DNA of 64,000 nucleotides. Source: Kocuria sp. (GTDB lineage: Bacteria; Actinomycetota; Actinomycetes; Actinomycetales; Micrococcaceae). A program made the translations under genes and the position numbers. The DNA is taken from the NCBI GenBank assembly GCA_030524035.1, contig JAUNHG010000001.1, positions 527,250 through 591,249 on the forward strand, in the 5' to 3' direction. The notes below the pieces were generated by a model. That model worked only from the letters and a program-made list of their open reading frames with translations, made no database searches and had not been told where the DNA came from. Of the stretch, positions 3,199 through 23,689 are shown one piece after another. The stretch's first letter is position 1, and the number at the start of each line of letters is the position of its first letter.

Positions 3199-3267
3199 TG
3201 CACACCACCTATCACGCCACTGCATTGCCTGATAACCCGCACCAAATTTGTGAAAGCTGATAGCACT

Positions 3268-5205: not shown

Positions 5206-5242
5206 TCTGCGGATTCCCTGGTTTGTGGGACAGTAGGACGTT

Positions 5243-5962: not shown

Positions 5963-6020
5963 CGTTATGGGAGTAGTGCATAACTGGCACGTAACCCTTT
6001 GAACGATATTCAATGGCGCC

Positions 6021-7118
6021 ATGTTGATTTATGGCGAAAACACCCGGTGGAATCCTGCTGAAGATCGTTATGATCAAATGCTCATGCGGCGTTTGGGGGA
6101 CTCTGGGCTGGCGTTACCGGTGATTTCCCTGGGGCTGTGGCACAACTTTGGCGATGACACCCCGTTGCAGACCCAAAAGGAGATTCTGCGCAAAGCTTTC
6201 GACCTGGGTGTCACGCACTTTGACTTGGCGAACAACTACGGGCCGCCCGGTGGGTCAGCGGAGCTGAACTTTGGGCGGATTCTGCGGGAAGATTTCGCTG
6301 GGTTGCGTCAGGAGTTGGTGATTTCTTCCAAAGCCGGGTGGGATATGTGGCCCGGGCCGTACGGGTTTGGCGGTTCACGAAAGTACTTGGTGGATTCCCT
6401 GGACCAGTCCCTGGAACGCATGGGCCTGGACCGTGTAGATATCTTTTACCACCACCGTCCAGACCCACAGACGCCACTAGAAGAAACCATGCGGGCGCTG
6501 GATTACATCGTTCGTTCGGGGCGTGCCAGTTACGTGGGTGTGTCGTCATACAGCGCTGACCTAACTGCCCGTGCCCAGCAGATCATGCGAGGACTGGGCA
6601 CACCCTTGGTGATCCACCAGCCGTCGTATTCCATCCTGAACCGTTGGATTGAAACCCCAGCGTCTGACTCTATGGGGCCAGCTCACGGGCGCAACCTGGT
6701 GCAGACGTTGAGCGACCAGGGGATGGGGTCCATTGTGTTCACGCCTTTGGCTCAGGGCATGCTCACGGATAAATACCTCAACGGTGTTCCGCAAGATTCC
6801 CGCGCCGCCGCTTCTAAGTCGTTAGATCCTGCGTGGCTGACAGATGAAAACATCCAACGTATTCAGGGCCTACATGAAATCGCTGAGTCCCGTGGTCAGT
6901 CGTTAGCGCAAATGGCCATTGCCTGGGCTCTACGACCTCAAGAAGGTGGGCAGGTGACATCGGCATTGATAGGGGCGTCCAAACCGGCACAGATTGTGAA
7001 CAGTGTGGAGGCCGTGCAGAACCTTGAGTTCACACAGAACGAGCTGGACCGTATTGATGAACTATCGGCGGATGCTGGGGTGAATATTTGGGCGGAAGCT
7101 ACCGAGTCGGTGAACTGA
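6021..7118 (+). CDS. Aldo/keto reductase (YghZ/MgrA-like)
   Basis: This 365-aa NADPH-dependent aldo/keto reductase resembles E. coli YghZ (L-glyceraldehyde-3-phosphate reductase). The tetrad is visible: Asp in HFDLANNYG, the Tyr of the same block, Lys in VISSKAGWDM and His in IFYHHRPD. The cofactor-binding end has the block SALIGASKPAQI. Length is slightly above the YghZ type (about 346) because of a short N-terminal extension. The gene ends two bases before the stop of the oppositely oriented gene at 7121, so the 3' ends abut with no room for a separate terminator. The physiological substrate cannot be read from the sequence. Confidence 0.92.
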   Translation: MLIYGENTRWNPAEDRYDQMLMRRLGDSGLALPVISLGLWHNFGDDTPLQTQKEILRKAFDLGVTHFDLANNYGPPGGSAELNFGRILREDFAGLRQELVISSKAGWDMWPGPYGFGGSRKYLVDSLDQSLERMGLDRVDIFYHHRPDPQTPLEETMRALDYIVRSGRASYVGVSSYSADLTARAQQIMRGLGTPLVIHQPSYSILNRWIETPASDSMGPAHGRNLVQTLSDQGMGSIVFTPLAQGMLTDKYLNGVPQDSRAAASKSLDPAWLTDENIQRIQGLHEIAESRGQSLAQMAIAWALRPQEGGQVTSALIGASKPAQIVNSVEAVQNLEFTQNELDRIDELSADAGVNIWAEATESVN

Positions 7119-7120
7119 AT

Positions 7121-7939
7121 CTATAGACCCGCGTGGGCCAGGAGATAACGGGTCATGGGTGCGTAGGCTTCGGGGGCGACGTTGTCATCTAACGGGACAA
7201 CCACCTCAATCACCCCTTGAGCTTCCCCCACAAAGACGGCGGGATCGTTGCAATCGCCCACGGCAATCACCCTGTACCCCCGGGCTCCCGCGGCCCCAGC
7301 CATGCCGTGGTCGGTGACCACCAGGTCAGGCAGCGGAACGGATGCATCGTCCCGCTGCCGGGATTCCAGCTGATCCAACGCCAGGTCCATGGGTTCGGGG
7401 CGGTGCGTGTGGCGCAACCCTCCGTACTGTTCCACCATCACCACATCTCCCACAGCCCGAACGTCACCGTCATCCCAGGCAATGGCCCCGCGCACCGTCA
7501 CAACTTGCGCCCCAGCTGTCCGAGCAGCAACTGCCATCGGGGCGTATATAGCGGGCATGGCAGCGGGGTGAGCGGTAGCGAATAAAATGCTCCCACCGGC
7601 CCGGACGACCTCCCCAAACACCCGCGCGTATCGCTCTAGGGCAGCCACACACCGTTCGGCACTGATGGTGTCTTGACCCTGCCGATACGTGGGGTCAGGG
7701 TCAATTCCCACAGCATCCACCATCACACGGAATACCGAATCCCACGTATCCTCAGGGTGTGGAGCGATGCCCATGTACTGGTGTTCGGAACTGGCCAAAA
7801 AATCGTGGATATTGCCCAAGTTCGCTTGCCGGGGCGTGGCAACTTCCCCGGTGATTCGGGTGGCATTCAGGTGGATGATGAGTTCTTCACGAGTGGGGAC
7901 GTTCTGCCCGCCCACAGACGGGGTGCTTGGTGCGCTCAC
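7121..7939 (-). CDS. Conserved actinobacterial protein, possible phosphatase family, coupled to mshA
   Basis: A 272-aa soluble protein with a GTG start at 7939 that overlaps the mshA stop as GTGA, indicating translational coupling. A longer frame to 8011 would overlap mshA by 76 nt and is less likely. Distinctive blocks are LLFATAHPA, VVEQYGGLRHTH and VVTDHGMAGAAG. I recall a phosphatase-annotated actinobacterial family with such a DHGMAG block (PF15698-like), but this is memory rather than a search. Linkage to mshA suggests, without proof, a role connected to mycothiol; the MshA product 1-O-GlcNAc-inositol-3-phosphate does need a phosphatase (the step called MshA2). Confidence 0.7.
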   Translation of the reverse strand: MSAPSTPSVGGQNVPTREELIIHLNATRITGEVATPRQANLGNIHDFLASSEHQYMGIAPHPEDTWDSVFRVMVDAVGIDPDPTYRQGQDTISAERCVAALERYARVFGEVVRAGGSILFATAHPAAMPAIYAPMAVAARTAGAQVVTVRGAIAWDDGDVRAVGDVVMVEQYGGLRHTHRPEPMDLALDQLESRQRDDASVPLPDLVVTDHGMAGAAGARGYRVIAVGDCNDPAVFVGEAQGVIEVVVPLDDNVAPEAYAPMTRYLLAHAGL

Positions 7940-9228
7940 ACACCTACTGTATGACGCCCACCATCCAGCGACCCGTACAGTTGACAGTGCGCCCGGGCAG
8001 TAGCGTCCCACGAAAAATCCTGCGCTCGCTGCACGGCGGCATCAGCGCGACGCATCAGGTCGTCGGGGTGCTGCGCGATCCGGGCGAAAGCATTCGCCCA
8101 CGTTGCAGGGTGACGGTCGGGCAGCAACCACCCCGTTACCCCGTCCTGCACTGCGTACCGCAAACCATCCGTATCCGTAGCCACCACGGGGCAGCCGCAC
8201 GCTTGAGCTTCCAACGCCACTAACCCAAAAGTTTCAGACGATGACGGCACCGCCACTACGGAAGAATCCCGGAACCGTTGCGCCAGTTCATGCGGCGCGA
8301 TAGCGCCCAGCATGTCCACAGCCTGGGTCAGTCCGTGATCTCGAATAATGGCGCTGAGTTCCTCCGTGAACTCTGGTGAGCCCACTCCCGCAATCCAGAC
8401 GCGAGCATCAAGGTCAGGGTGGTTCCGACGCAGCGCAGCGAGCGCCTGAACCAGAACCTGCGGACCTTTCAGGGCTTGCAGGCGCCCAGCGAAACCAATC
8501 GAGAAAGGACGTGGCGGCGCCGTAGTACGGTCGCGGTACGGGTGGAAAACGGTGGTATCCACCCCGGGCGGAATGACCCGCACTTTCTGTGCAGAGGCGT
8601 CGTATAGTCGAGCCAGGTCATGAGCCTCAGCGGGGGTGTTCACCACAAGAGCATCCGAATCATGGATCAGCTGACGTTCCGTATCCACCCTGCGTTGTGG
8701 CTCGGGCACCTCGCCATTGCCTGCTCGCTGATTCTTGGCCAAAGCCGTGGTGTGCAACGTGGTGACGGCGGGGATGCCCCATAGGCGAGCCAGGGAAATT
8801 CCCACGGCAGCAGATAACCAGTAATGACTATGGATCACCTCTGGGAGTGGGCGGTGATCCTCCTGGTATGCCACATGTACCGCGTGGGCCATGGCTTGCA
8901 CATGGTCGGGTAAATGCTCTTTGGGTGCGTGGATGGTTTCTGGAAGCGCCACGTCCAGAACATGGAGGCGCGGTGCCGGTGAACTCCACGCCCAAGTGTT
9001 TGTCGGCACAGACTCACCGACATGTTCACTGTGCCTCCACAGGGTGATGAGGTCCACACTGTGCCCCAGTGCTGTGAGCGCCTTCGCCATGTGTTTGACG
9101 TACACGTTCATGCCACCGGCATCTCCTTGGCCGGGTCGTGCGAGCGGAGAGGTATGCAGGCACACCAAGGCAACTCGCTGTGAATCCTGCGAGGCGGCGT
9201 CCGGGGTGGCGGGGGAATCACTGTTCAC
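7936..9228 (-). CDS. mshA: D-inositol-3-phosphate glycosyltransferase MshA
   Basis: This GT4 enzyme transfers GlcNAc from UDP-GlcNAc to inositol-3-phosphate, the first step of mycothiol synthesis. The 430-aa protein shows the MshA N-terminal signature GQGDAGGMNVYV, the acceptor region IHSHYWLS, VDTTVFHP, the sugar-nucleotide block GFAGRLQALKGP and the EX7E motif in SSETFGLVALEAQACGCPVVAT. GTG at 9228 is chosen because a TACAGT -10 box at 9241-9236 ends seven bases upstream, consistent with a leaderless mRNA; GTG 9237 is an alternative. The stop overlaps the next gene as GTGA. The presence of mshA places the organism in the Actinobacteria. Confidence 0.93.
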   Translation of the reverse strand: MNSDSPATPDAASQDSQRVALVCLHTSPLARPGQGDAGGMNVYVKHMAKALTALGHSVDLITLWRHSEHVGESVPTNTWAWSSPAPRLHVLDVALPETIHAPKEHLPDHVQAMAHAVHVAYQEDHRPLPEVIHSHYWLSAAVGISLARLWGIPAVTTLHTTALAKNQRAGNGEVPEPQRRVDTERQLIHDSDALVVNTPAEAHDLARLYDASAQKVRVIPPGVDTTVFHPYRDRTTAPPRPFSIGFAGRLQALKGPQVLVQALAALRRNHPDLDARVWIAGVGSPEFTEELSAIIRDHGLTQAVDMLGAIAPHELAQRFRDSSVVAVPSSSETFGLVALEAQACGCPVVATDTDGLRYAVQDGVTGWLLPDRHPATWANAFARIAQHPDDLMRRADAAVQRAQDFSWDATARAHCQLYGSLDGGRHTVGV

Positions 9229-11490: not shown

Positions 11491-12234
11491 GTGCTTCTGC
11501 TGTGTCTAGATTCTTCTGCCGTCGCGTCGGTTGCTGTCGTGGAGACGGGGTCTGCCGGTGGCGCGCAGACCCCCCGCATTCTCGCCCAATGGGACACTCA
11601 GGACACCCGATCCCACGCTGAAGTTCTCTCACCGGCCATTGAACAGGTGATCACGGAATCCGGAATTCACTCGCGTCAGCTAGACGCCGTGTTGGTGGGC
11701 ACCGGTCCCGGGCCGTTTACCGGGTTACGGGCCGGGCTTGCCACCGCCCGCGCCCTAGGTTTTGGGTGGGGATTGCCTGTGTATGGGATGCCTAGCTTGC
11801 ACGCGGTGGCGCACGACGTCGCCACCACACCGGAGCATCGCCGCCCATCGGAGTTTGTGGTCGCTACCGATGCCCGGCGTCGTGAACTGTACTGGGCTGT
11901 TTACCAGACCTGCACCGTGGGTTCCTATACTGCGCGCGCCGAACTATCCGACGGTCCTTTTGTGGGTTCTCCCGCGGATGTTGCGGATCTACCGGTCTAT
12001 GGGTACGGGGCGAGCCTCTACGCTCAACAGCTGACTCGTCCGGTACTGGAACCGGTGACCGGGGCGCGGTTGACCACACCTGCCAGTCAGTGGCAGCCCT
12101 GCGCGGCAGCGTTGGGACTAGCGGCGGGCGTTCTATTGAGCTGCGGTGGTGCATTAAGCACAGACACTACGCCGTTGTACCTGCGGGAATCTGATGCGAA
12201 AGTTCCTGCGTTTCGTAAGAAAGCAACGTCGTGA
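11491..12234 (+). CDS. tsaB: tRNA threonylcarbamoyladenosine biosynthesis protein TsaB
   Basis: TsaB is the inactive TsaD paralogue that forms the TsaB-TsaD-TsaE complex making t6A at position 37 of ANN-decoding tRNAs. The 247-aa product starts LLLCLDSS and contains VLVGTGPGPFTGLRAGLATARALG, the family hallmark, and a C-terminal PLYLRESDAK. The GTG start lies six bases after a TAGACT -10 box (leaderless). The stop overlaps the start of rimI (GTGATG at 12231-12236), so the two genes are translationally coupled. Confidence 0.94.
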   Translation: MLLLCLDSSAVASVAVVETGSAGGAQTPRILAQWDTQDTRSHAEVLSPAIEQVITESGIHSRQLDAVLVGTGPGPFTGLRAGLATARALGFGWGLPVYGMPSLHAVAHDVATTPEHRRPSEFVVATDARRRELYWAVYQTCTVGSYTARAELSDGPFVGSPADVADLPVYGYGASLYAQQLTRPVLEPVTGARLTTPASQWQPCAAALGLAAGVLLSCGGALSTDTTPLYLRESDAKVPAFRKKATS

Positions 12235-12782
12235 TGGCCACCGTCAGCGCACAGCACTGTGAGTGGCATATGCGGGCGGCGACCCGTGGGGATGTGGCGA
12301 CCATCGAAGCCCTAGAACGACGCCTTTTTCCCGACGACGCATGGTCGTCGGAGGTAATTACTGAGGAAATCACCCATCCCAGCCGCAGCTATTGGGTGAT
12401 TGAGACTGCCGGCCAGGTGATCGGCTACGCGGGTGTGATGGTAGTTGCCGAAACTGCCGATGTTCATAACATCGCGGTGCTGCCTGACTATGAAGGACAA
12501 GGCATCGGTTCTGCTTTGTTGCAGCAGCTTCATGCAGAAGCTATCGCACGCGGTGCACGTGAGATCCTGTTGGAAGTACGCGCCGATAATCACCGGGCAC
12601 AAGCGCTCTACCGAAAATTCGCTTACACAGAAATTGCGGTGCGCCCGCAGTATTATCCCGGGGGACAAGACGCCGTGACGATGCGCGCCGAATTAACACC
12701 GTCCGTTGCACGGTCAACAACAGACCTGACAAGCCACATGACAGGCGCTGCTACCCATAACGACCCCACTACTCTCCCGTGA
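12231..12782 (+). CDS. rimI: Ribosomal protein S18 alanine N-acetyltransferase RimI
   Basis: A 183-aa GNAT acetyltransferase. Visible: the N-terminal [16 protein letters not shown], a [20 protein letters not shown] acetyl-CoA loop of the Q-G-x-G type, and [17 protein letters not shown], the RimI signature, followed by [11 protein letters not shown]. About 30 extra hydrophilic residues trail the fold. Starts are GTG 12231 or ATG 12234. Its stop overlaps tsaD as GTGA. Position between tsaB and tsaD is the standard actinobacterial arrangement. Confidence 0.92.
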
Positions 12783-13915
12783 ATGTGATGAATAACGCCC
12801 ACCGTCCCGCCCGAAATCCCCTGGTTCTGGGGATCGAAACCTCATGCGATGAAACCGGGGTGGGAATCGTGCGGGGCAGGCGCCTTCTGGCCAATACCGT
12901 GCGCTCTTCTATGGACCAACATGCTCGGTTTGGTGGGGTGATTCCAGAAATTGCTTCCCGTGCTCACCTGGAGGCAATAATTCCCACGCTCCACGAAGCT
13001 CTACACACCGCTGGGGTCACCCTGGAAGACGTGGATGCGATCACTGTGACAGCAGGCCCTGGGTTGGCAGGGGCGTTAATGGTAGGAGTTTCCGCCGCTA
13101 AAGCCCTTGCGTTAGCAACCGGTAAACCCTTATACGGGGTGAATCATTTGGTGGCCCATGTGTGTGTGGGATTACTAGAGCACCAGGATGTAGCGACTGG
13201 CCGGAAACTGCTGGACCAGGACGGCAAAGTTCTGCCGGGGCTAGGTGCCCTGCTAGTTTCTGGTGGGCATACGGAGATCCTCAAAGTGAACGACATCGCC
13301 CATGATGTTCAGCTATTGGGGGCGACAATTGACGACGCTGCCGGTGAAGCCTACGACAAAGTGGCCCGGCTTCTGGGATTGGGATATCCGGGTGGGCCAG
13401 CGATTGACCATGCAGCATCTGATGCCGCCGCTACCATGAAGTTTCCACAAGGGTTATCCCACGCTAAGTACATGGGTTCTGCAGACCACCCCGGTAAGCA
13501 CCGGTACGATTTTTCCTTTTCCGGGTTGAAAACTGCCGTTGCGCGTGTGGTTGAAGCTTATGAAGCGGCCAATGAAACTGTTCCCGTGGGCCAGATTGCC
13601 GCGTCATTCCAGGAATCTGTGGTGGATGTGCTCAGCCGCAAAACAGTCCTAGCGGCCACAGAAAATGGTATTAACACGTTGCTTTTGGGTGGGGGAGTAG
13701 CGGCCAATTCACGATTACGACAGGTATTGGCGCAACGATGCGCTGAATACGGGGTGGACTTGGTGGTTCCACCGTTGGCGTTGTGCACAGATAACGGCGC
13801 CATGGTTGCTGCGCTGGGTGCCCACCTGATGGGCCATGGCACGGCGGCGTCGCCGTGGGGCTTCACGGCTGATCCTGGGCTTCCCGTGACGGCGGTTAGC
13901 GTCGGTGGTGTGTGA
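12779..13915 (+). CDS. tsaD: tRNA N6-adenosine threonylcarbamoyltransferase TsaD
   Basis: TsaD transfers the threonylcarbamoyl group onto A37 of tRNA. The 378-aa protein opens [14 protein letters not shown], has VNHLVAHVC with the metal-binding histidines, [27 protein letters not shown] and the C-terminal CTDNGAM. GTG 12779 overlaps the rimI stop. With TsaB and the TsaE domain of the upstream fusion, all three bacterial t6A partners downstream of TsaC are within 5 kb. An 18-bp hairpin begins at the stop codon. Confidence 0.96.
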
Positions 13916-13965
13916 CGTGTGGTGGTGGGAAATCCCGTGGAGGGTGGTTCCCACCACCACACGTC
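13914..13965. terminator. 18-bp perfect hairpin between convergent tsaD and the ThiF-like gene
   Basis: The arms at 13914-13931 and 13948-13965 are perfect complements, enclosing a 16-nt loop. The left arm overlaps the last two bases of the tsaD stop. There is no following T run on either strand, so it is either a bidirectional transcription barrier without U tract or a 3' stabilising stem. It lies exactly in the gap between two convergent genes. Confidence 0.65.
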
Positions 13966-13977
13966 GTACCGACGTAA

Positions 13978-14922
13978 CTATGATGTGGGGATCAGCGTAC
14001 GAGCGGCTCGGGCGAGCAATCTGGCTTTGCGCAGTGGGGCCAGGAAACGCGTGAGGCGGCGTGCGCCCGATGGCATGACATCCGTATGAAGATCCAGTAC
14101 CACATCCTTGGCCACGGATTGTCCACAGAGCAAACACAGCACAATGCGTGAGGCTGCGGCCCCGAACAGTAAGGCTGTATAGGCAAGTTGTGGGAAACCG
14201 TCTTCTTGATCAATGGCTGGAAGGCTTTTGAGTAAATCGACAGGCATGGCTTTGAGGGGAATGACTTGTCGTAGGAGCGCCCAGTGTGACTCTTTCCGAA
14301 GGTCTTCCAGCGTGATAGCCCCTGTGAAGGGGCGGTCCCCAGGCCGATACTGGTAGGTGCGGATGTACTGCACCCCCGCCATGTCGTAGCCGACCACCAC
14401 GGGAATTCCGAGCCGGGAAGCAGCCTCATGTAGGTAATATTTAGCCCGCCACCCCTCCATGGTTGTTACGTCCACCCCATCCAGAATCACGTGGACACCG
14501 CGCAGCATCTCGTACACATTGTGTGATGTGATGCCTTCAGTGTTGACATCACAGGCTATGTCAGGGTTGATGCTCACAGCCCGCCTGCGTAACACGTCGG
14601 CTTTATTGCTGTTCAAGTCTGCGCGAGTGGCAGATTGCCGATTCAGGTTACTTAACTCAAAGGAACCAGGTTCACATAGGCGGATACGCGATACGCCTAA
14701 CCGGACGAGTGGTTCCACTGCCGCCCCGCCCGTGGAACCACAGCCCGCCACAAGCACAAGACCGTCTCGGAGTCTTTGCTGCATAGAACGGTTGATCAAG
14801 GGTCGATTACGTGAATACTGTTCGTTATACGCATCCGTTGATTTCCATGGTGAATTTTCTGATGCAGTGTCAGAAAAACTTTCGAGATCTATCACTGTTC
14901 CCCCAATGTGCTGAATGCTCAA
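13978..14922 (-). CDS. ThiF/MoeB/E1-like adenylyltransferase
   Basis: A Rossmann-type E1-like enzyme; the family adenylates a carboxy terminus or small carboxylate. Visible: the glycine loop VAGCGSTGG, the ELSNLNRQ block with its Arg, NSNKADVLRRR with the ATP lysine, and DGVDVTT with the Mg-binding Asp. The usual acidic residue before the E-x-S-N-L-N-R-Q block is CEPG here. No CxxC zinc pairs and no obvious catalytic Cys are visible, so transfer chemistry is unclear. Start is uncertain: TTG 14922 (AGGAG eight bases upstream) or GTG 14895; both overlap the upstream gene. Last gene of the minus-strand cluster. Confidence 0.82.
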   Translation of the reverse strand: MSIQHIGGTVIDLESFSDTASENSPWKSTDAYNEQYSRNRPLINRSMQQRLRDGLVLVAGCGSTGGAAVEPLVRLGVSRIRLCEPGSFELSNLNRQSATRADLNSNKADVLRRRAVSINPDIACDVNTEGITSHNVYEMLRGVHVILDGVDVTTMEGWRAKYYLHEAASRLGIPVVVGYDMAGVQYIRTYQYRPGDRPFTGAITLEDLRKESHWALLRQVIPLKAMPVDLLKSLPAIDQEDGFPQLAYTALLFGAAASRIVLCLLCGQSVAKDVVLDLHTDVMPSGARRLTRFLAPLRKARLLARAARTLIPTS

Positions 14923-15832
14923 CCTTTTCACTCCTAGTTGACGCCAGTTTCCCCAAAATGGTCTTTTTGTTTCCTGTGTCGAGTGCCATGTCGATTCCCT
15001 CAAAGGTATGTCCGATGCCGGGTCGTGGCTGGACCCTGCCGATAAATGGAAGAACTTCACACCTACGGAGGTACATGGGCCACATCGGGTCATCGGGGGG
15101 CAGCGCAGGTTGCGTCCCCTTGATGACTTGCGTTTCTACCCCAAATACTTCCAGGTAACGAAGGGCAACGTGCATCTCAAGGTCCCCAACCGCCCACGGT
15201 ATGTGTGTTTTTCGTGCGGTGGTTAAGGCCATCAAACCAAGGACTAGTTCTAGTGGCACCAGCAGCCTCATGGACTCGGGTATCGCGGGGTTCCTGACAA
15301 ACCTTTTGATTTCCATGATTTCCCCGAGCCGAATATTCGGCGAAGGGAGCCAATCTGCAATGTTAATGTGGTGCGCTTTTTCTACTGGAAAAAGTGGTCG
15401 ATCAGGAAAATAAATAGAACGAGTATCATCCTCATCGGAAATAAATTCCGCCCCAAGGTATCCCACAATGGAGCCAGTAGTGTTATCTAAAGCTACTATG
15501 TGGAAGTCGTTAGGATTGGGGTGATTGAGATCTTCCCAAAACATTCTGTGGTTGTATACCACTTGTGGGCTAGCCCACCCCAGGCGTAAGTATTGCGCCA
15601 ATCGGAAGCCCATAATTCCAATCTGGTACCGTAACGGCACGTGATGATGATGGCACGCAACGATGGTATAGCTGTGTCTGCGACGGACATGGATGGGGTC
15701 ACTGTGAAGGCTGGTGGCCAGGTGAGTGAAGGTGAGCTTTTGATGGAGTTCCATCACGTGACGAGCAAATTGCGCGGCTTCTGCGCTGTCCCCCACATCA
15801 TCCATAGGACCTACGTTCGGTTGTGCGGTCAC
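14870..15832 (-). CDS. LuxI/FeeM-like N-acyltransferase (GNAT-fold) candidate
   Basis: A 320-aa protein without a close named relative known to me. It has the layout of the autoinducer-synthase / N-acyl amino acid synthase superfamily: an N-terminal helix region, DFHIVALDNTTGSIVGYLGAEF (beta strands around a G-x-x-V-G-Y core), PLFPVEK, then GEIMEIKRFV near residues 170-179, which parallels the ExSRF block of that family with Lys in place of Ser, and a C-terminal GDLEMHVALRYLEVFGVE helix. Such enzymes move an acyl chain from acyl-ACP or acyl-CoA to an amine. GTG 15832 overlaps the acyl-CoA dehydrogenase stop (GTGA); GTG 15835 is an alternative. Confidence 0.6.
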   Translation of the reverse strand: MTAQPNVGPMDDVGDSAEAAQFARHVMELHQKLTFTHLATSLHSDPIHVRRRHSYTIVACHHHHVPLRYQIGIMGFRLAQYLRLGWASPQVVYNHRMFWEDLNHPNPNDFHIVALDNTTGSIVGYLGAEFISDEDDTRSIYFPDRPLFPVEKAHHINIADWLPSPNIRLGEIMEIKRFVRNPAIPESMRLLVPLELVLGLMALTTARKTHIPWAVGDLEMHVALRYLEVFGVETQVIKGTQPALPPDDPMWPMYLRRCEVLPFIGRVQPRPGIGHTFEGIDMALDTGNKKTILGKLASTRSEKVEHSAHWGNSDRSRKFF

Positions 15833-17067
15833 CACTGATCCTCGCCGTTCTCAAAATCATCAGGGTTCATAATAGATTGGGTGATCGCTAACGCTAAAAC
15901 TTCGGGTGTGCCCTCATAAATTCGGGCTCCTAAAGCATCGCGCATATATTTTTCGATACCATATTCTCGTAAATATCCCCTAGCGCCCATAATCGACATA
16001 GCGGTCTGTGCTACGTCGATGGCCATTCGGTCTGCGTGCAGTTTGGCAATTGCAGGCTCCAGTGCCGGAACGGGAATTTGATTATCGGCGACATCGGATC
16101 CCCGCAGGTATAACAAGCGTGAAGCTTCGATTTGGGTTGCCATATCAGCGATTTTTTGCGCGGTGAATTGATGCTCCCAGAGCTGTTTGCCGCCTTGACG
16201 TCGCTCATGAGCGAAGGAGCGGGCTAATTCGAAGGCGCCTCGGGCTACCCCGGTGGATAGTGCTGCTACCGTGGAACGCGCCATATTCATTTGTTGGATG
16301 TTGATTTCTACTCCCAAGCCAATATCCCCAATGATGTTTGAGGCAGGGACGCGCACATCATGGAAGTAAATTTCCGTCCCCAGGCAGTTTCGATACCCTG
16401 TTTTGTCAGCGATACTCGCGGTTTCCACGTCTTTGTCGAATGGAACCACAAAGCAGGTGTACCCGTCCTCAGGTGGCATCCCTTCAATATTTGCATATAC
16501 GCTGCCAAAATCTGCAACGGCGCCGTTTGTGATGAATCGCTTACGCCCCGTGATTATGTAGGAATCCCCATCAGGTGTGGCGATGACATCGGATTCAGCG
16601 AAACGGGTGTTTTCCGGGATTAATAAATCACATCCAGAGCGGTCTTCCGTAATTGCGTTACAGGCAAGAACTGCCTTATCTGATGCGAAACGGGATAGGT
16701 ATTGTCCTTGAAGTTGTTCATCTCCAGAAAGCAAGAGAGGCGCCTGGCCTAAAAGAGTTGCGCCAAAAATTAGTGCCGTTCCGGCATCAACTGCTCCTAG
16801 TTCTTCCAGGGCGATGGCGGCGGCTTTGATCCCATACCCTAGGCCACCAAAGGCTTTAGGGACGACCAGGCGTGTAAGCCCCAAGTCGTGACCTGCTTGC
16901 ACGATGTCCCAGTCCAGGGTTTCGGCGGCGCTGGCGTCGTTGATCGCAACTTTGGGGCGCACAACGTTTTCGGCAAACGTGCGTACCTGGTCTCTGAGTT
17001 CAGTGAGAACGGGGTCCAGGAGGTCAAGGTCGATGAATGCTGTGCTGGTGTTTTCTGTGATGGGCAT
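15829..17067 (-). CDS. Acyl-CoA dehydrogenase
   Basis: A 412-aa flavoprotein of the acyl-CoA dehydrogenase superfamily, oxidising acyl-CoA to enoyl-CoA. Features in order: helical N-terminal domain, NAITEDRSGCDL (FAD-contacting), the beta domain with ITGRKRFITNG, then the C-terminal helical domain with GARGYLREY and the catalytic glutamate in RIYEGTPEVLALAI. The ATG at 17067 has AAGGAG seven bases upstream; the longer frame to 17124 is unnecessary. Its stop is translationally coupled to the N-acyltransferase-like gene, suggesting it modifies the acyl chain used there rather than acting in general beta-oxidation. Confidence 0.93.
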   Translation of the reverse strand: MPITENTSTAFIDLDLLDPVLTELRDQVRTFAENVVRPKVAINDASAAETLDWDIVQAGHDLGLTRLVVPKAFGGLGYGIKAAAIALEELGAVDAGTALIFGATLLGQAPLLLSGDEQLQGQYLSRFASDKAVLACNAITEDRSGCDLLIPENTRFAESDVIATPDGDSYIITGRKRFITNGAVADFGSVYANIEGMPPEDGYTCFVVPFDKDVETASIADKTGYRNCLGTEIYFHDVRVPASNIIGDIGLGVEINIQQMNMARSTVAALSTGVARGAFELARSFAHERRQGGKQLWEHQFTAQKIADMATQIEASRLLYLRGSDVADNQIPVPALEPAIAKLHADRMAIDVAQTAMSIMGARGYLREYGIEKYMRDALGARIYEGTPEVLALAITQSIMNPDDFENGEDQW

Positions 17068-17110
17068 GAATGCTCCTTGGTGACTGCTTGGGTGATGGTT
17101 ATTGTGTGGA

Positions 17111-17497
17111 TCATCCGACACCATGGGCCGCAGCTAAATCCGGGTAGCGGTCGAAAGCTGGACGCATTATCGGGATAAACTCAAGAATTTTGGGGACGTT
17201 TCCTCGAACGCGTACTTTTCCTGTGGCTAAGGCGGCTGGCATGAGTAGTTCGCCAAGCCAGAGTTTGTGTGCGGTATCGCAGCTCATGGCAATTCGAACG
17301 TTTGGCGTGAATCCCGTCAAATCTGTGTGTAGCCCACTGTCATCAAACCCCATGATGTATTCAGGATCTTTATGTTTGATCATCACTTTAAGCCCTGACT
17401 CGCTCATGGATTTCATAGCTTGTTCGTCACGGGACAAAATAGTGAACAGTTCACCAAAAACGGCGGCAGCTTGTTCAGCGGAATGGTAAAAGGGCAT
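17111..17497 (-). CDS. SCP2-like sterol/lipid-binding domain protein
   Basis: A 128-aa stand-alone protein resembling the SCP2 domain: central beta strands, then LWLGELLMPAALATGKVRVRGNVPKILEF, which matches the C-terminal part of SCP2-like proteins (GxxxAALxxGKVxVxG followed by a terminal helix). Members bind acyl chains or acyl-CoA in a hydrophobic tunnel. AGGAGAT lies seven bases before the ATG. It sits 43 nt upstream of the acyl-CoA dehydrogenase, so it may present the acyl substrate. Confidence 0.8.
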   Translation of the reverse strand: MPFYHSAEQAAAVFGELFTILSRDEQAMKSMSESGLKVMIKHKDPEYIMGFDDSGLHTDLTGFTPNVRIAMSCDTAHKLWLGELLMPAALATGKVRVRGNVPKILEFIPIMRPAFDRYPDLAAAHGVG

Positions 17498-17602
17498 GGG
17501 AGATCTCCTCGTGTAGCGGGTGAATGGACGGTGCCACCGTGGGGCGGCGCACGACTATTGGTGCGTTGTCGTGGTTCGTGGGGCAGGGTGAGCCTGCTGG
17601 GT

Positions 17603-18844
17603 TTACCAGGTGGTTCGCATGAGCTCGCGGTGGAGTAAGTCGCGTAATTCGGTGGATATGGCGGTGTGGCTGAATTTCTCGGTGACCACCGCGCGTGACA
17701 AGGTTCCGATGCTGTTGCGGTCAGCATCCAACGCGGTGCGGATAGCCCGGGCTTGGTCTGCGGGGTTTAGTGGATCGTGGAGAAATCCAGTGTGGTGATC
17801 TGTGAGATATGTGGGCATTGCGCCGCTGCGTGCGCATACAACGGGTGTTCCACATGCCATGGCTTCTGTGGTGGTCACGGAGAACGTTTCGTGGATTGAT
17901 GGCAAGGTGTAGGCATCCACAGAGGCCAAAACCTTGGCGCGATCCTGGCCGTGCAGAAATCCGTGGAAGAAGATCTGGTCTTTGGAACGCAGCCGTGCGG
18001 CGTGTAATTTCAATTTTTCTTCAAGTGCACAGTCCCCTTCCCCGACGACGAGTAACCACGTGCGTTTTCGGCGCTCCGGTGGCATAGCATCCATAAGTAC
18101 ATCGAAAGCTTCTAGGGTGTGGTCGATCTTTTTTTCGGGTGCTAGCCGCCCGAAGGAAAGAACAACCTGATCATCCGGTTGAAGGGTGGGCACGAGTGTG
18201 CGTAACCATGATCTATCCCGTTGTTCCGGCGTGAAGATCTGGGTGTCCACCCCGTCGAAAGCAAGGCGTTCCACGCGTCTGGCGTGCAGTTTTTCCACTT
18301 CCAGTTCGGCGCTATCCGAGGCCGCTATGACAAGGTCCGGACTCCGGTAGAGGGCCCTGAGCGCTGGCAGAAGGAAAGTATCAGTCACTTTGTTCCACCC
18401 CCTGTAGGAGGCGGCAAATCCATAAAAATCTGTGTGGTAATACCCAATGTATGGTGAACCGTTGTGTGATGCCCAGGATCTTCCGGGGCGTCGCCAACTT
18501 GAGAGGAAAGTTCCCCTTTCCACATCTGTATTAATCACAACATCTGGCTTGATATCCGCGATCATTTTTTCTACCTGTTTTCCACCCTGTAACGTGGGCA
18601 CTCGGAAGAATGGGTAAATCGGCCATGGTTTCGCCTCGTACATGTGAATAGTGGTTTGCGGAATGTTGTCACGGTGTGCGGCGTCGTGCTGTGGAACGAT
18701 CACATGTATATCCATGTCTTGGTGTTGGGATAGGTGGCGAACACGATCAACATTTCCACTACTAGGACCTCCGACTTCCGGTGGCCACCCTGTGGTGAAA
18801 TACGCAACTCGAAGACTGTTTTTTGATGAGGTACGAGAACTCAT
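17603..18844 (-). CDS. GT4 family glycosyltransferase
   Basis: A 413-aa GT-B glycosyltransferase like those acting on lipid acceptors (PimB/SQDG-synthase type). N-terminal GGPSSGNVDRV glycine-rich loop, YIGYYHTDFYGFA acceptor region, the donor block LSFGRLAPEKKIDHTLEAF, and the EX7E motif in SIHETFSVTTTEAMACGTPVV. No signal peptide or membrane segment, so it is cytosolic or peripheral. GGGAGC precedes the ATG. It lies 63 nt after the MFS gene and 105 nt before the SCP2-like gene. Donor and acceptor are unknown; the context of acyl-handling enzymes and lipid exporters suggests a glycolipid. Confidence 0.88.
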   Translation of the reverse strand: MSSRTSSKNSLRVAYFTTGWPPEVGGPSSGNVDRVRHLSQHQDMDIHVIVPQHDAAHRDNIPQTTIHMYEAKPWPIYPFFRVPTLQGGKQVEKMIADIKPDVVINTDVERGTFLSSWRRPGRSWASHNGSPYIGYYHTDFYGFAASYRGWNKVTDTFLLPALRALYRSPDLVIAASDSAELEVEKLHARRVERLAFDGVDTQIFTPEQRDRSWLRTLVPTLQPDDQVVLSFGRLAPEKKIDHTLEAFDVLMDAMPPERRKRTWLLVVGEGDCALEEKLKLHAARLRSKDQIFFHGFLHGQDRAKVLASVDAYTLPSIHETFSVTTTEAMACGTPVVCARSGAMPTYLTDHHTGFLHDPLNPADQARAIRTALDADRNSIGTLSRAVVTEKFSHTAISTELRDLLHRELMRTTW

Positions 18845-18907
18845 GTGGGCTCCCAGGTGCAGATCGCTTGTTCAATCGTTCAGAAGCAGTGGAGGGTTAC
18901 TCAGGAA

Positions 18908-20356
18908 TTAGTCCTGTGGGCGCTTTTTTGTGATATTGGAGTTTTCGGATGGTTGTTTTTCTGTAGGTGTCATAATGCTGCTGATCAGTCCTAATGTCAG
19001 AAAAGCAAGTGATGCTACGAGCGCTGCGGGTAGCCCCACCGTGTATCCATCAGGGCTTTCCGAACCCCCAGCCAGCGCAAAAAGTGCACCGACACAGGCA
19101 ACACCGATCAGCACCCCGGATTCGCGAATGGATGTATTAATGCCCGTGGCAACGCCTTCGGTGCTCCGGGTGGAAAACGCTATGGCTTGACCCGTGATGA
19201 GGGCGAAGAAAACCCCCATTCCTAATCCCGCCATAATCATCCCGGGCAGAAGGGAAACATATGCGGCATCAGGGTGAATGGTCAGGAGAAACCAGGCTAA
19301 TCCAAGTATTTGTAGGGCTGTTGAAGCAATGATCAATGGTTTCATCCCAACTCGGGTGACTGCCATACCAGCTAAAGGTGCGGAAACGGCCGGTAGCATC
19401 GTCCAGGGTAAAGTGGCGATTCCCGCCTCAAGGGGGCTATACCCCATGGCAACTTGCAAATACTGAGTGAGAATGAAAACAATTCCAAAAATTCCTGCGG
19501 TTACCAGGAGGGCCGTGGAGTTAGAACGCAAGAACCCTGTGTTGCGTAGTAGCGCGGCAGGTAAGGCTTCATGATCTTGCCGTAACACACGGTATAACCC
19601 CGCTGCCAGACATACGATGGCTAAAATTCCCCAGCCCAGAGACCAACGACTTGCGGCACTGAAGGATAATGCAGCTGCGGCTATACCGAATAGCCCCAGA
19701 CTCAGTAGCACTAAAGACAATATGGGCAACCCGTTGGTGTGATGCGTTTGTTCCGAGGGAACACGGAAGCTCAGCGCAATGACCATAACCGCGATAGGAA
19801 CATTGATCCAAAAGACCCATTGCCACTGAGACAAAGAAATAATGAGTCCCCCCACAAACGGACCGAGTGCGATGCCAAGTCCCTGGACGCCGGAGAGCAC
19901 AGCAACGACCAGCGCTCGTCGGCCTGCTGGGACTGAGGAAATCAACAGGATCAGTGCCAAGGGCACAACCAGCGCTGCGCCCACACCTTGAGTAGCCCGA
20001 GCGGCCACGAATACCCCGTATGTGCCTGCAGAGGCGGCTAAGGCAGACCCAATTCCAAAGAGGCTGATGCCCACAAGAAACACCCGGTGTCGCCCCCATC
20101 GGTCGCCCACCATGGCAGCGGCCACCATCAGAACAGCGAACGGCAGCGTGTAGGCGTTCACGCTCCACGTCAAATCCTGGATGCTCGTGGAAAATTCACG
20201 CTGGATGTGAGGAAGGGCCATGGTGACTACCAGGTTGTCCAACGACGCCATAAATGTCGCCGTCCCCATCGACACCCAGAGGGCCACCCTATGGTGGGGA
20301 GTCGCAGGCAGCGGGCTATTTTCCGCTCCGAGGGTGGGGGAGTTGCTGCTGTTCAT
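18908..20356 (-). CDS. MFS transporter, DHA2 (EmrB/QacA) type
   Basis: A 482-aa polytopic protein with about 14 hydrophobic segments. Family marks: VTMALPHIQREF and LTWSVNAYTLPFAVLMV near the N-terminus, GDRWGRHRVFL (motif A), GPFVGGLIISLSQWQWVFWINVPIA. Members are proton-driven drug or metabolite exporters. The ATG overlaps the stop of the MMPL gene as ATGA, a sign that the two exporters are made together. No specific substrate can be inferred. Confidence 0.92.
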   Translation of the reverse strand: MNSSNSPTLGAENSPLPATPHHRVALWVSMGTATFMASLDNLVVTMALPHIQREFSTSIQDLTWSVNAYTLPFAVLMVAAAMVGDRWGRHRVFLVGISLFGIGSALAASAGTYGVFVAARATQGVGAALVVPLALILLISSVPAGRRALVVAVLSGVQGLGIALGPFVGGLIISLSQWQWVFWINVPIAVMVIALSFRVPSEQTHHTNGLPILSLVLLSLGLFGIAAAALSFSAASRWSLGWGILAIVCLAAGLYRVLRQDHEALPAALLRNTGFLRSNSTALLVTAGIFGIVFILTQYLQVAMGYSPLEAGIATLPWTMLPAVSAPLAGMAVTRVGMKPLIIASTALQILGLAWFLLTIHPDAAYVSLLPGMIMAGLGMGVFFALITGQAIAFSTRSTEGVATGINTSIRESGVLIGVACVGALFALAGGSESPDGYTVGLPAALVASLAFLTLGLISSIMTPTEKQPSENSNITKKRPQD

Positions 20357-22668
20357 GCCCCCACGCCTTCCTGTGCATCATGGAAGCGCTTGGTGTTTGC
20401 CCCAAAGGGCCACCACCAGGCTGCATTCCCCAGTAGAGACAAGGCAGCGGGCACCAAAAGCATGCGTACCACGGTGGCATCAAGCAAGATTCCGACGGCG
20501 AGCCCAAATCCGAGCTGCTGAATGGGCACAATGCCCGTGAAAGAAAACGCACCAAACACCACGACCATCAGCAAGGCCGCTCCGCTGATCAGAGGGGCGG
20601 TTAGGGTGAGTCCCCGCGCAATGGCGGTGCGCGGTAACTCCCCAGACTCCCACTCTTCGCGGATGCGCGAAATCAAGAACACCTGGTAATCGGTGGCCAA
20701 GCTGAATAACAGGGCCAACAAAAGAACGGGTACAAAGTTCTGGGTGTACCCAAGGACCGTGTAGCCGAGTAATTCGGCCCCCCAGCCATGTTGGAAAACC
20801 AGCACCATGATGCCGTATGTCGCACCAACACTGAGCAGGTTCATCACGACTGCGACCAGCGGAATCAGTATGGAACGGAAGCTGACGGCCAAAAGAGCGG
20901 CGATCACCACGATCATGCACAACATGACCCACGGCAGTGCGCGAGAAATTTGGTTATTGCTTTCTATTCCCTGTGCAGTTTGCCCACCCACCAAGATCGT
21001 GGCGTCGTCTAAGGCAACGTCACTGGTGATGGACTCTACGTCACGCAGAACCCTTTGAGTGTCCTGGCTGGAAGCCCAGTCATCGGTCATAACTTCCACA
21101 AGAAGTTGTTGGCCTGATTCATCCAGGTACAGCCCTAATGCTTTGCGTTGTGCTTCCGGTAACCGTTCGCGGATGTCTGGGTTGGCCATGGCAAGGGGGT
21201 TAGCAGCATTCACGGAGGCCATGGCAGGCAAGGGTGACGTAACGTCAGTCACCCCATCAATATCGCCCAGTTGGGTGATCAGGTCTTCGACTTCTGTGGG
21301 GTCGAGTTCGTCAAGACCACCTTCTGTGGACACCAATACCTGGATCGGTGCTGTAGAACCCACGGAGAAATTCTCTGCCACACGGTCATACCCCTGACGC
21401 ACACTTGTTGAAGGATCCACAATGCGCACATCGGGGGTGAAAGTTGTCAGTTGAGCGGCTGGGAAGGTGAGTGCAGCCAGCACAGCTACCCCGGAGAGCA
21501 AGAAAATGATGGGACGTGTGGTGACAGCACGGGCCAGGCGGGACGGTTTCACCGTCTCCGACGTTTTGGAGGTTTGTGCAGCTGACCGGCGTCCCCATAT
21601 GCGGCCCCAGTTAATTCGGTGCCCCAGCAGCGCCAGGATGGCAGGCAACAAGAAAACACAAACCAACAGGGAGAACAGCACAACAGCCACAACCCCCAAG
21701 GCCAAGGATCTGATGATCATCAAATCAACCAAAAACAGCATGCTCATGGCGATGGCAATGGTCAGGCCTGATGCAACCACGGCGTGGACCGCGGTCTTTC
21801 GGGTGGTGGCCAAGGCTTCTTGAGTGGAAGCTCCCAGCTGCAGTTCTTGCTGGAATCGCCGCACAATAAACAGCGAATAGTCGATGCACACGCCTAAACC
21901 GAGCATGGTGACGGCATTGAGCGTGAAGGACGACAGGGTGATCTGTTGACCGATGACCACCAGCGTGCCCAGGGTGACGATAATTGCCGCGATGGTTACC
22001 AGAAGGGAGACGACCGTTGCGGCAATGCTGCGGTATAGGAAGAGCAGCACGACAACAATTAAAGGCAGTGCAATTAATTCCGCGTTGACTAACCCTTCGG
22101 CGCTGGCTTTGTTGATTTCGCCCCAGAAGGCCTCGGCACTCAAAAGGACGACGCGTTGATTGTCGTGCGAGTATTCGGCATCAAGTTCAGCCTGGATTTC
22201 TGGCAGCAACAGCGATGCTTCACTTGTTGTCAGATCACTGCCAAGCATTGTCAGCGTGGTGCGCTCATCTTTACCCAGGAAGTTAGATTCAATACCGCCT
22301 CCGTCTGCGTAACCAACATGTGAGGACACTTTGAGGCGTGAGTCATCGGTAATTTTTTGAACGACTTCTTGGGTGCGCTGCTCAAATTCGTCATCATCGG
22401 ATGTGAAACGCTCATCAGTGATTTCGAGAACGATGCTGCTTGTGTCGCGCCCTACAAATCCGTTCTCAAGTTCTTTCGCGAGTTTGAAAGGTGCGGCTTC
22501 TGCGATTTCCCAGCCACCTTCTTGAAAAGTTGATTCCGCTTGGGCGGCTCCTGTCATACCAATGAGAACCAGGATGAACCAGGCGGTGACCATGGCTAAA
22601 GAGCGGACCATCAGGCCGCGTGCGCCGGATTGCTTTTTGGGCGCAGTAGGGTGCGGTGAATGAGGCAC
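20353..22668 (-). CDS. MMPL family (RND-type) transporter
   Basis: A 771-aa RND-superfamily exporter of the actinobacterial MMPL type. One N-terminal membrane helix (about 20-42), an extracytoplasmic domain (to about 195), a block of helices with GLGVCIDYSLFIVRRFQQEL (the DY pair relaying protons), a second external domain, and a second helix block containing ATDYQVFLISRIREEW. Mycobacterial relatives export lipids such as trehalose monomycolate and PDIM. GTG 22668 has AGGAG nine bases upstream. First gene of the minus-strand cluster; its control region carries a palindrome. Confidence 0.92.
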   Translation of the reverse strand: MPHSPHPTAPKKQSGARGLMVRSLAMVTAWFILVLIGMTGAAQAESTFQEGGWEIAEAAPFKLAKELENGFVGRDTSSIVLEITDERFTSDDDEFEQRTQEVVQKITDDSRLKVSSHVGYADGGGIESNFLGKDERTTLTMLGSDLTTSEASLLLPEIQAELDAEYSHDNQRVVLLSAEAFWGEINKASAEGLVNAELIALPLIVVVLLFLYRSIAATVVSLLVTIAAIIVTLGTLVVIGQQITLSSFTLNAVTMLGLGVCIDYSLFIVRRFQQELQLGASTQEALATTRKTAVHAVVASGLTIAIAMSMLFLVDLMIIRSLALGVVAVVLFSLLVCVFLLPAILALLGHRINWGRIWGRRSAAQTSKTSETVKPSRLARAVTTRPIIFLLSGVAVLAALTFPAAQLTTFTPDVRIVDPSTSVRQGYDRVAENFSVGSTAPIQVLVSTEGGLDELDPTEVEDLITQLGDIDGVTDVTSPLPAMASVNAANPLAMANPDIRERLPEAQRKALGLYLDESGQQLLVEVMTDDWASSQDTQRVLRDVESITSDVALDDATILVGGQTAQGIESNNQISRALPWVMLCMIVVIAALLAVSFRSILIPLVAVVMNLLSVGATYGIMVLVFQHGWGAELLGYTVLGYTQNFVPVLLLALLFSLATDYQVFLISRIREEWESGELPRTAIARGLTLTAPLISGAALLMVVVFGAFSFTGIVPIQQLGFGLAVGILLDATVVRMLLVPAALSLLGNAAWWWPFGANTKRFHDAQEGVGA

Positions 22669-22725
22669 GAAAGTCTCCTGTGGGGGGTCTGTGATCGTAT
22701 GAATTTGGGGGGATCTACGGCCATA

Positions 22726-22754
22726 ACTCTAGATTGATTGGTCAATCAACAAGC
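22726..22754 (-). promoter_or_regulatory. Predicted promoter of the MMPL-led gene cluster
   Basis: On the minus strand CTTGTT (22754-22749) and TAGAGT (22731-22726) are 17 bp apart. The palindrome at 22734-22749 fills the spacer, so a bound repressor would block polymerase. Confidence 0.5.
22734..22749. promoter_or_regulatory. Palindromic operator, probably for the divergent TetR regulator
   Basis: TTGATT-GGTC-AATCAA is an inverted repeat with 6-bp arms and a 4-bp centre, typical in size for TetR-family operators. It lies between the -35 and -10 elements of the MMPL promoter and about 410 bp upstream of the TetR gene at 23162. Confidence 0.6.
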
Positions 22755-22985
22755 AGAGATGACGGATTGTGACGGCAACTGCGGCTGTTCGATGAGGCGT
22801 CAACAATATCGTGACCTCAGTGAATGCCACAGGTTGCGTGATCTTCATGGAGATCCGCGTCTTGCCGGTGAAGCTTTCCCCTGGGGTGTTGTCTGATACA
22901 TGCAAAGTCAGGGGTGCCTTTTCTTATGCCCTGAGCGGGCCTGCGGGGTGGGTGCATGGCAACCGCACCGTGGTGCTGATCGTCA

Positions 22986-23020
22986 CAGCGCTACCATGGG
23001 GTGACCCATCGGTAGCGCTG
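22986..23020. other. Strong hairpin with GUGA tetraloop in the MMPL-TetR intergenic region
   Basis: Outer 10-bp perfect stem (22986-22995 with 23011-23020), a single bulged C at 23010, then a 5-bp stem 22996-23000 with 23005-23009 closed by GTGA. A short T run (23036-23040) is too distant for a standard terminator. The rest of the 490-nt region between the divergent genes shows no convincing gene. Confidence 0.5.
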
Positions 23021-23070
23021 AGCAATATGCCCCCGTTTTTAGCTCAGTGAGTGTGTGGAGTACCCCGCTC

Positions 23071-23099
23071 TGGTCACTGTCCATCCTCGGACCTACCCT
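23071..23099 (+). promoter_or_regulatory. Weak predicted promoter of the TetR gene
   Basis: TGGTCA and TACCCT separated by 17 bp, about 60 bp upstream of the ATG at 23162. Confidence 0.35.
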
Positions 23100-23161
23100 G
23101 CCGACGTGGATACGTTGTGAGCCATGTACGGCGGATGCTTCCACCCCCCTAGGAGGAGCCC

Positions 23162-23689
23162 ATGAAACAACAATCCGCTCAGCAGCGACGGGCACGTGTC
23201 CTTGATGCGGCTCTGCCTGAATTCGCGGAGTTTGGTTTCCACGGTGCGACCACAGCGCGAATTGCGGAATCAGTTGGAATCTCACAGTCCTATGTGATGC
23301 ACCTTTTTGGATCGAAGAAAAATCTTTTTATGGAGAGCATGCGAACCTGCTCCGAACGTTTGGTTGAGCACCTCAAAGCAGTGCCGGATTCCGATGACAC
23401 ATTGAATTCATTGTCCTGTGCCTACCAGTTATTAATGCGTGAGCAGCCAGACCTCATGAAATTTCAGTTGCAGGGATGGGCCGCTGCAGCCCAGGATGAC
23501 GAAGTTCGGGATGCCTGTGCCGAACAGTTTCGCGTGCTCTGGTTCACCATTGCCGACAAACTTGATCTGGACCGCGGAACAGCAGCACCGCTCATGGCTG
23601 CGTTGTCTTTCTTTAATGTGGTCGTGACCCTGGGTATTCAGGATGACCAAGGGTGCGCTGTGGCGGGACTTATTCAGAATTTTCAGTAG
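23162..23689 (+). CDS. TetR/AcrR family regulator, divergent from the MMPL cluster
   Basis: A 175-aa one-domain repressor. Residues 8-55 form the TetR helix-turn-helix: LDAALPEFAEFGFHGATTARIAESVGIS then YVMHLFGSKKNLF. The remaining helices form the ligand pocket. AGGAGGAGCCC precedes the ATG. It is divergent from the MMPL-MFS-glycosyltransferase operon, whose promoter contains a matching palindrome, so it most likely represses that operon. Its last 20 bases overlap the end of the convergent ligase gene. Confidence 0.9.
   Translation: MKQQSAQQRRARVLDAALPEFAEFGFHGATTARIAESVGISQSYVMHLFGSKKNLFMESMRTCSERLVEHLKAVPDSDDTLNSLSCAYQLLMREQPDLMKFQLQGWAAAAQDDEVRDACAEQFRVLWFTIADKLDLDRGTAAPLMAALSFFNVVVTLGIQDDQGCAVAGLIQNFQ

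Follow-up and report, generated by a model that had tools for sequence, protein, structure and literature searches.

What could a bacterium make with a gene set that combines a ThiF-like adenylating enzyme, an acyl-CoA dehydrogenase, a glycosyltransferase and two exporters? The question is raised by a block of eight genes in a stretch of 64,000 nucleotides (nt) from Kocuria sp. (GCA_030524035.1, contig JAUNHG010000001.1, positions 527,250-591,249), which is called the window below and to whose positions all coordinates refer. The answer favoured here is a TetR-controlled cluster for the synthesis and export of an N-acyl amino acid lipid via an oxazolone (azlactone) made by the ThiF protein, a reading to which a probability of about 0.45 can be given. 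It starts from the genes themselves, from the fact that most are linked and conserved, and from the family context of ThiF and the absence of a detectable nitroreductase-type oxidase. The features are:

13978..14895, reverse strand: ThiF/E1-like adenylating enzyme (Pfam ThiF, 92 bits), start at GTG 14895 or TTG 14922
14870..15832, reverse strand: putative N-acyl amino acid synthase of 320 amino acids (aa), family not recognised, named from position and size
15829..17067, reverse strand: acyl-CoA dehydrogenase-fold flavoenzyme, 412 aa (Pfam, 123 bits)
17111..17497, reverse strand: SCP2-like small lipid-binding protein, 128 aa (Pfam SCP2, marginal at 21.9 bits for a cut-off of 21.3)
17603..18844, reverse strand: GT4 glycosyltransferase, 413 aa (Pfam Glycos_transf_1, 107 bits; PDB matches, e.g., 3c4q)
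18908..20356, reverse strand: DHA2-type MFS exporter (Pfam MFS, 161 bits; NCBIfam EmrB-type DHA2 model, score under its cut-off)
20353..22668, reverse strand: MMPL-family exporter (Pfam MMPL, 265 bits), GTG start behind AGGAG
22734..22749, no strand: candidate TetR operator palindrome upstream of the MMPL gene (7-bp arms, 2-nt spacer)
23009..23101, forward strand: probable alpha/beta-hydrolase gene remnant (tblastn, 31 aa)
23162..23689, forward strand: divergent TetR-family regulator (Pfam TetR_N, 42 bits)
13905..13990, reverse strand: hairpin between the convergent ThiF and tsaD stops, probable two-way terminator (folding energy against shuffles)

In the proposed pathway, the 320-aa protein would attach a fatty acyl chain to an amino acid. 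ThiF would then adenylate the free carboxylate, and the amide oxygen would close the oxazolone ring, as the tyz, trz and oxz systems lead one to expect. The acyl-CoA dehydrogenase might remove hydrogens from the alpha and beta positions of the amino acid, replacing the nitroreductase-type oxidase of the known clusters; this is the least sure step. Going by their families, the MMPL and MFS proteins would export the product, possibly with the SCP2 protein as carrier and with a sugar added by the GT4 enzyme. The divergent TetR would repress the whole through the conserved palindrome.

The eight open reading frames are confirmed at the positions given and Pfam names seven of them (frames below 100 aa were omitted from the listing). 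Seven genes on one strand facing a divergent tetR, as a sequence-only reading of the window had described, are therefore real, and the overlaps it reported are also found. The MMPL and MFS genes share ATGA (20353-20356), the dehydrogenase and acyltransferase genes share GTGA (15829-15832), and the ThiF gene overlaps the acyltransferase gene by 26 nt from GTG 14895 or by 53 nt from TTG 14922; the GTG agrees with the beginning of the ThiF protein of Kocuria subflava. For the dehydrogenase, ATG 17067 is the most likely start, rather than 17124, because it is preceded by AAGGAG, 43 nt past the SCP2 stop. Downstream of ThiF, the hairpin (18 pairs, -42.8 kcal/mol, z -5.6; none of 200 shuffles reached this stability) is the probable end of the operon.

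The locus is a real operon, largely conserved and linked to TetR. When 27 genomes of the genus, its own included, were searched at the DNA level, five pieces were found on two K. subflava contigs, and one further genome gave a lone short match (E 6e-4). On one of the two contigs lie TetR, an alpha/beta hydrolase, MMPL, MFS and some 22 codons from the start of GT4; the dehydrogenase, the acyltransferase and ThiF lie on the other. Six of the eight proteins are thus present there, near contig ends and in the gene order of the window, with identities of 66% (TetR), 73% (MMPL), 67% (MFS), 83% (dehydrogenase), 60% (acyltransferase) and 62% (ThiF). Searches for the acyltransferase gave a match in 2 of 39 relatives, 1 of 394 genomes of the class and 2 of 295 genomes of the family (Micrococcaceae), its own genome being counted each time; beyond the window genome and K. 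subflava, searches of relatives, class, family, genome contigs, plasmids and viral contigs returned none.

By sequence, the ThiF protein is an E1-like adenylating protein, in whose alignment the motifs GCGSTGG, SNLNRQ and DGVD are read. Its gene adjoins that of the putative acyltransferase, an arrangement also seen in acyl-oxazolone clusters, where this type of ThiF would act as the cyclase. A profile built from two rows, the Kocuria pair, matched, at E 1e-12, 96 of 248 genomes from a single genus, presumed to be Mycobacterium. The top three (E between 1e-21 and 1e-23) are stand-alone ThiFs, and their loci hold an alignable TrzA-type acyltransferase and a nitroreductase-type oxidase; all but one of the other matches listed lie in frames of at least 640 aa, the size of the TrzS ThiF-oxidase fusion. 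In profile-profile alignments (hhalign), the Kocuria pair gave E-values of 4e-18 with Rhizobium/Shinella ThiFs, 8e-18 with the three stand-alone ThiFs, 1e-17 with a Riemerella ThiF, 7e-16 with TrzS, 1e-14 with Nitratidesulfovibrio, 4e-12 with E. coli MoeB/ThiF and 4e-11 with TcdA. These scores place it closer to acyltransferase-linked ThiFs than to MoeB, ThiF or TcdA, yet on a divergent branch. The AlphaFold model is good in the nucleotide-binding core only (mean predicted local distance difference test score, pLDDT, 55; predicted template modelling score 0.61). The nearest PDB chains are 9EGC and 9EGB, for which no relevant paper was found.

Several ThiF loci were observed along the way. The three stand-alone ones (L094, L095 and L096, about 2400-8800) look like oxazolone-type loci with additional tailoring: Pfam finds a methyltransferase in L094 and L096, a P450 is found by Pfam in L094 and by eye in L095 while none was seen in L096, and the nitroreductase-type oxidase that Pfam finds in L094 has counterparts in the two remaining loci, with identities of 89 and 71%. 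Of the 394 class genomes, three, its own included, contain a match to the profile at E 1e-20; in the other two (E about 4e-25; L062:6318-8087 and L063:7813-9497), large genomes of one genus, ThiF adjoins a GNAT acetyltransferase. The best plasmid match, from Nitratidesulfovibrio vulgaris (L024:8089-11058), is a FeeM-ThiF-nitroreductase fusion beside exosortase (PEP-CTERM) polysaccharide genes. Plasmids of Shinella (L026:7051-12145) and Rhizobium (L027:7036-12056) have in common a set of five genes (unknown, ThiF, unknown, GNAT and a fifth gene, nitroreductase-like in Shinella, where it was tested). Of seven loci fetched for a TrzS-like ThiF that lacks the oxidase part, two have a TrzA-like gene nearby. 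In one of the seven (L118:6934-12907), ThiF is divergent from transketolase-like halves, recognised by eye, and an acyl-CoA dehydrogenase; this case is not used as support.

Two other roles for ThiF were considered and rejected. Two CxxC zinc pairs define the sulfur-carrier E1 enzymes of the MoeB/ThiF kind. The Kocuria protein does not have them, its single CLLC having a second Cys that is not conserved in K. subflava, and no ThiS/MoaD partner was found among the scanned frames, which were of at least 100 aa. As for defence, the 25 padloc models shown, of 30 that match ThiF, are all E1-E2 models that cover its E1 core, and no padloc model matches the acyltransferase.

The 320-aa product of 14870-15832 has no Pfam match even at E 10 and none in NCBIfam; in the same way, the LuxI/FeeM profiles PF00765 and PF21926 match neither the window protein nor that of K. 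subflava at E 10. This silence is not evidence against an acyltransferase, because three TrzA-type proteins used as controls have no Pfam match either. An AlphaFold model from the two sequences is unusable (pLDDT 33). The signature of acyl-homoserine lactone synthases is E-x-x-R. In weak alignments, EIMEIKRFV lies over GEMYEHSRLVV of a GNAT/FeeM-ThiF fusion and IPWAVGDLEMHVALRYLEVFGV over a stretch of TrzA, both in the expected register. Position, size and published parallels suggest a putative acyltransferase. Fusions and neighbours of related kinds were seen on plasmids: in Streptomyces sp. NBC_01431 (L109:10915-12783), a 622-aa frame joins a GNAT/FeeM-like part (weak matches) to a TrzS-like ThiF and overlaps a KAS III gene, and in Rhodococcus (L111:6924-9807), a GNAT acyltransferase with a weak match to acyl-homoserine lactone synthases and a ThiF are separated by an IS256 transposase.

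Pfam finds no nitroreductase-superfamily oxidase among the frames of the locus. With an E limit of 0.01, an oxidase query had no match in the window genome or in K. subflava and matched all three comparison genomes, one of them its own source; the family PF00881 has one partial match in the window genome, in a 116-aa frame elsewhere. What the operon has is a 412-aa enzyme with the Pfam domains of the acyl-CoA dehydrogenase superfamily and the catalytic Glu column. The catalytic base of acyl-CoA dehydrogenases is this Glu; that of IYEGT aligns with the equivalent residue of 1ukw, while the best PDB match, 7p98, has Thr there. At E<=1e-60 no other match to the dehydrogenase occurs in 120 sampled Micrococcaceae, and against plasmids at E 1e-40 it matched 233 records, all below 60% identity (32-36% for the 40 listed). 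Oxidation of an oxazolone by such an enzyme is plausible, because the alpha proton of the oxazolone is acidic, as in a thioester. The oxidising enzyme probably differs from that of the known ring-closing clusters, and export genes have probably been added. As regards the neighbouring SCP2 gene, tblastn matched annotated SCP2 genes on Rhodococcus plasmids.

The palindrome proposed for the TetR switch, TTGATTG-GT-CAATCAA at 22734-22749, is weak when taken alone, since an equally good one occurs in 68 of 1000 versions of the intergenic region made by mononucleotide shuffling. It sits within a 49-nt block with 84% identity to K. subflava, in which GATTG-N2-CAATC is preserved. The palindrome of the sequence-only reading is real and lies in a conserved block; a sigma-70 scan shows no promoter there. 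Further on, 23009-23101 resembles the hydrolase over 31 aa (tblastn, 39% identity, one internal stop, E 0.004); the match scores 22.3 bits, and the top score among 100 shuffles is 20.4. This is probably what is left, in decayed form, of the alpha/beta-hydrolase gene that K. subflava still has between operator and tetR.

The block is flanked by tsaD on one side and a GCS2 ligase gene on the other, in a genome of 2.3 Mb. Its G+C content is 0.51-0.58, against 0.57-0.63 in the surroundings, and the gene downstream of ThiF is a HAD hydrolase in K. subflava where the window genome has tsaD. The low G+C and the different neighbour fit a mobile unit.

Several observations weigh against the oxazolone pathway. 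The acyltransferase call has no significant support from profiles, pairwise comparison, profile-profile comparison or fold: hhalign gives E 0.73 to TrzA-type proteins and 0.51 to a FeeM-ThiF fusion, and the shuffle z-scores against TrzA, FeeM and GNAT stay within the control range (16 upstream frames were aligned, one of which, L032, TetR-like by eye, was excluded from these comparisons). The best z (4.1) belongs to a control, the GNAT at 12231-12782 of the window, with one of the two query sequences only. The LuxI/FeeM-like label that the protein had received is accordingly unproven. On the ThiF side, the Riemerella protein scores about equally without such a gene context, and the ThiF tree, built from a sample that used 10 of the 30 fetched TrzS loci and left out the class-level ThiFs of L062 and L063, lacks support at its deep forks (62/76). 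The C-terminal half alone fits no compared family well; E. coli MoeB/ThiF come out a little ahead of the others (E 0.025 in local and 0.008 in global alignment). Queries with the oxidase and with the dehydrogenase gave no match near the class-level ThiFs. The literature naming Kocuria and oxazolone, judged by titles and the beginnings of abstracts, includes nothing on such a product. Deletion of litJ, the acyl-CoA dehydrogenase gene of the lipothrenin cluster, has minor effects only (PMC10616846), and the Kocuria enzyme may therefore be peripheral. Lastly, the rest of GT4, SCP2 (sought by DNA search only) and the first dehydrogenase codons were not found in K. subflava, where a GT4 query gave ten matches, all at no more than 35% identity. 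These parts are either lost there or inside an assembly gap, and GT4 and SCP2 may be dispensable extras.

The same gap bears on the possibility that the block is a loose set, in which an operon for envelope-lipid export and glycosylation and a separate ThiF-based modification set share only a promoter. The two halves do lie on two K. subflava contigs. Similarity to the operon ends about 70 bases short of one contig end and about 90 of the other, with a faint 19-residue GT4 match in the stretch of about 90. These unmatched ends (L005:1-100 and L022:1-75) fall where GT4, SCP2 and the dehydrogenase start would be expected, each break thus being in the would-be joining stretch. K. subflava nevertheless retains both halves, and overlaps bind MMPL to MFS and the dehydrogenase to the acyltransferase and ThiF, which makes a loose set improbable. 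Synthesis and export of an acyl lipid under TetR, as first proposed, remains the best reading for genes that mostly recur together; that they travel together holds for six proteins, on two contigs and with a start fragment of GT4, and leaves GT4 and SCP2 apart. A different order of reactions could also be envisaged, where the dehydrogenase acts first and places a 2,3 double bond in the acyl-CoA, after which ThiF activates the carboxylate for an amide or ester, leading to an exported glycolipid or lipopeptide without any oxazolone. ThiF relatives activate carboxylates for several nucleophiles. The fold and the catalytic Glu column are kept and the SCP2-like lipid carrier is adjacent, but the closest stand-alone ThiFs of the 248-genome set lie in oxazolone-type loci, and this order is rather unlikely.

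A lipothrenin-like pathway is the other alternative. It would yield an N-acyl hydroxy-amino acid (e.g., threonine) whose configuration is inverted by ThiF, perhaps via an oxazolone, while the dehydrogenase would only tune the fatty chain. The comparisons with this and other published clusters draw on part of each source. In Streptomyces aureus LU18118, the lipothrenin cluster includes litI (124 aa), litJ (acyl-CoA dehydrogenase, 421 aa), litK (85 aa), litL (unknown, 311 aa) and litM (ThiF, 297 aa). Deletion of litL abolishes all N-acyl-threonine products and deletion of litM leaves the L-Thr form alone, the D-allo-Thr products requiring LitM (PMC10616846). The litI-J-L-M order and sizes agree with those of the Kocuria genes, on a comparison of the published table, not of sequences, with the window; MFS, TetR and hydrolase genes also occur in both sets, if the hydrolase is taken from K. 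subflava (PMC10616846). In contrast, litK has no counterpart in Kocuria, and the lit cluster has a fatty-acyl AMP ligase, an acyl carrier protein, KAS III and an N-oxygenase, while its table, as far as available, shows no MMPL or GT4 (PMC10616846). None of the eight block frames encodes this ligase, carrier protein, KAS III or diiron N-oxygenase; no search for the ligase, the carrier protein or the N-oxygenase was made in the rest of the genome. With these differences a lipothrenin-like product seems doubtful.

Among the closest published parallels to the oxazolone pathway is tyzABC of Mycobacterium tuberculosis, which leads to a C12 tyrazolone and adjoins mmpL9 (PMC10404671). There, as in trzAS, whose products are tryptazolones, TyzA/TrzA N-acylate amino acids and TyzB/TrzS cyclise the products (PMC10404671, PMC12856293). 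Likeness to tyzABC includes an acyltransferase of 322 aa, a stand-alone ThiF of 318 aa, a flavin oxidation and a neighbouring mmpL (PMC10404671), the acyltransferases being likened by size and not by sequence. GT4, SCP2 and MFS are not mentioned in the available part of that text (PMC10404671). The desaturase of the known acyl-oxazolone clusters is a nitroreductase-superfamily oxidase (PMC10404671), whereas Kocuria has an acyl-CoA dehydrogenase. The locus is not placed in the tyz family because the nitroreductase feature was looked for and not found. The order of N-acylation followed by ThiF cyclisation is also that of trzAS (PMC12856293) and oxzAB (via PMC10404671), but ThiF is fused to the oxidase in these systems, and TrzA-type proteins have no significant similarity to the Kocuria 320-aa protein. 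Clusters of the stieleriacine type likewise unite an N-acyl amino acid synthase with ThiF and with a flavin enzyme that is proposed to introduce the 2,3 double bond, and they are linked to dehydrotyrosine lipids (stieleriacines, thalassotalic acids and kyonggic acids). Their flavin enzyme is of the nitroreductase type, and neither MMPL nor glycosyl appears as a word in the available main text (PMC12479983). The paulomycin cluster, which has ThiF-like and acyl-CoA dehydrogenase genes, was rejected as a parallel: its ThiF resembles MoeZ and has been given a role in sulfur transfer (PMC4425429).

The statement that no described pathway has this set must then be narrowed. The logic of acyltransferase, ThiF and flavin desaturase is that of tyz, trz and oxz, with lit as a further parallel, but no precedent was found for the full set: among the open-licence papers that the searches listed, none was seen in which a single pathway unites ThiF, GT4 and MMPL with an acyl-CoA dehydrogenase and an N-acyl amino acid synthase. 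Acyl-oxazolones are recently found lipids, partly studied in mycobacteria, and if the proposed pathway is true, a compact Kocuria operon with its own exporters and regulator would open their export, their regulation and the interchange of desaturases to testing. It would also point to a cause, open to test, of the epimerisation in lipothrenin synthesis that depends on ThiF and has had no explanation. A broader idea, which is speculative and rather unlikely, would connect these systems. The acyl-CoA dehydrogenase would have been recruited to oxidise an oxazolone that mimics its ancestral thioester, and the azlactone would be an activated intermediate shared by pathways in which two unrelated flavoenzyme folds desaturate it, LitM epimerises it, and, in Kocuria, glycosylation and MMPL export follow.

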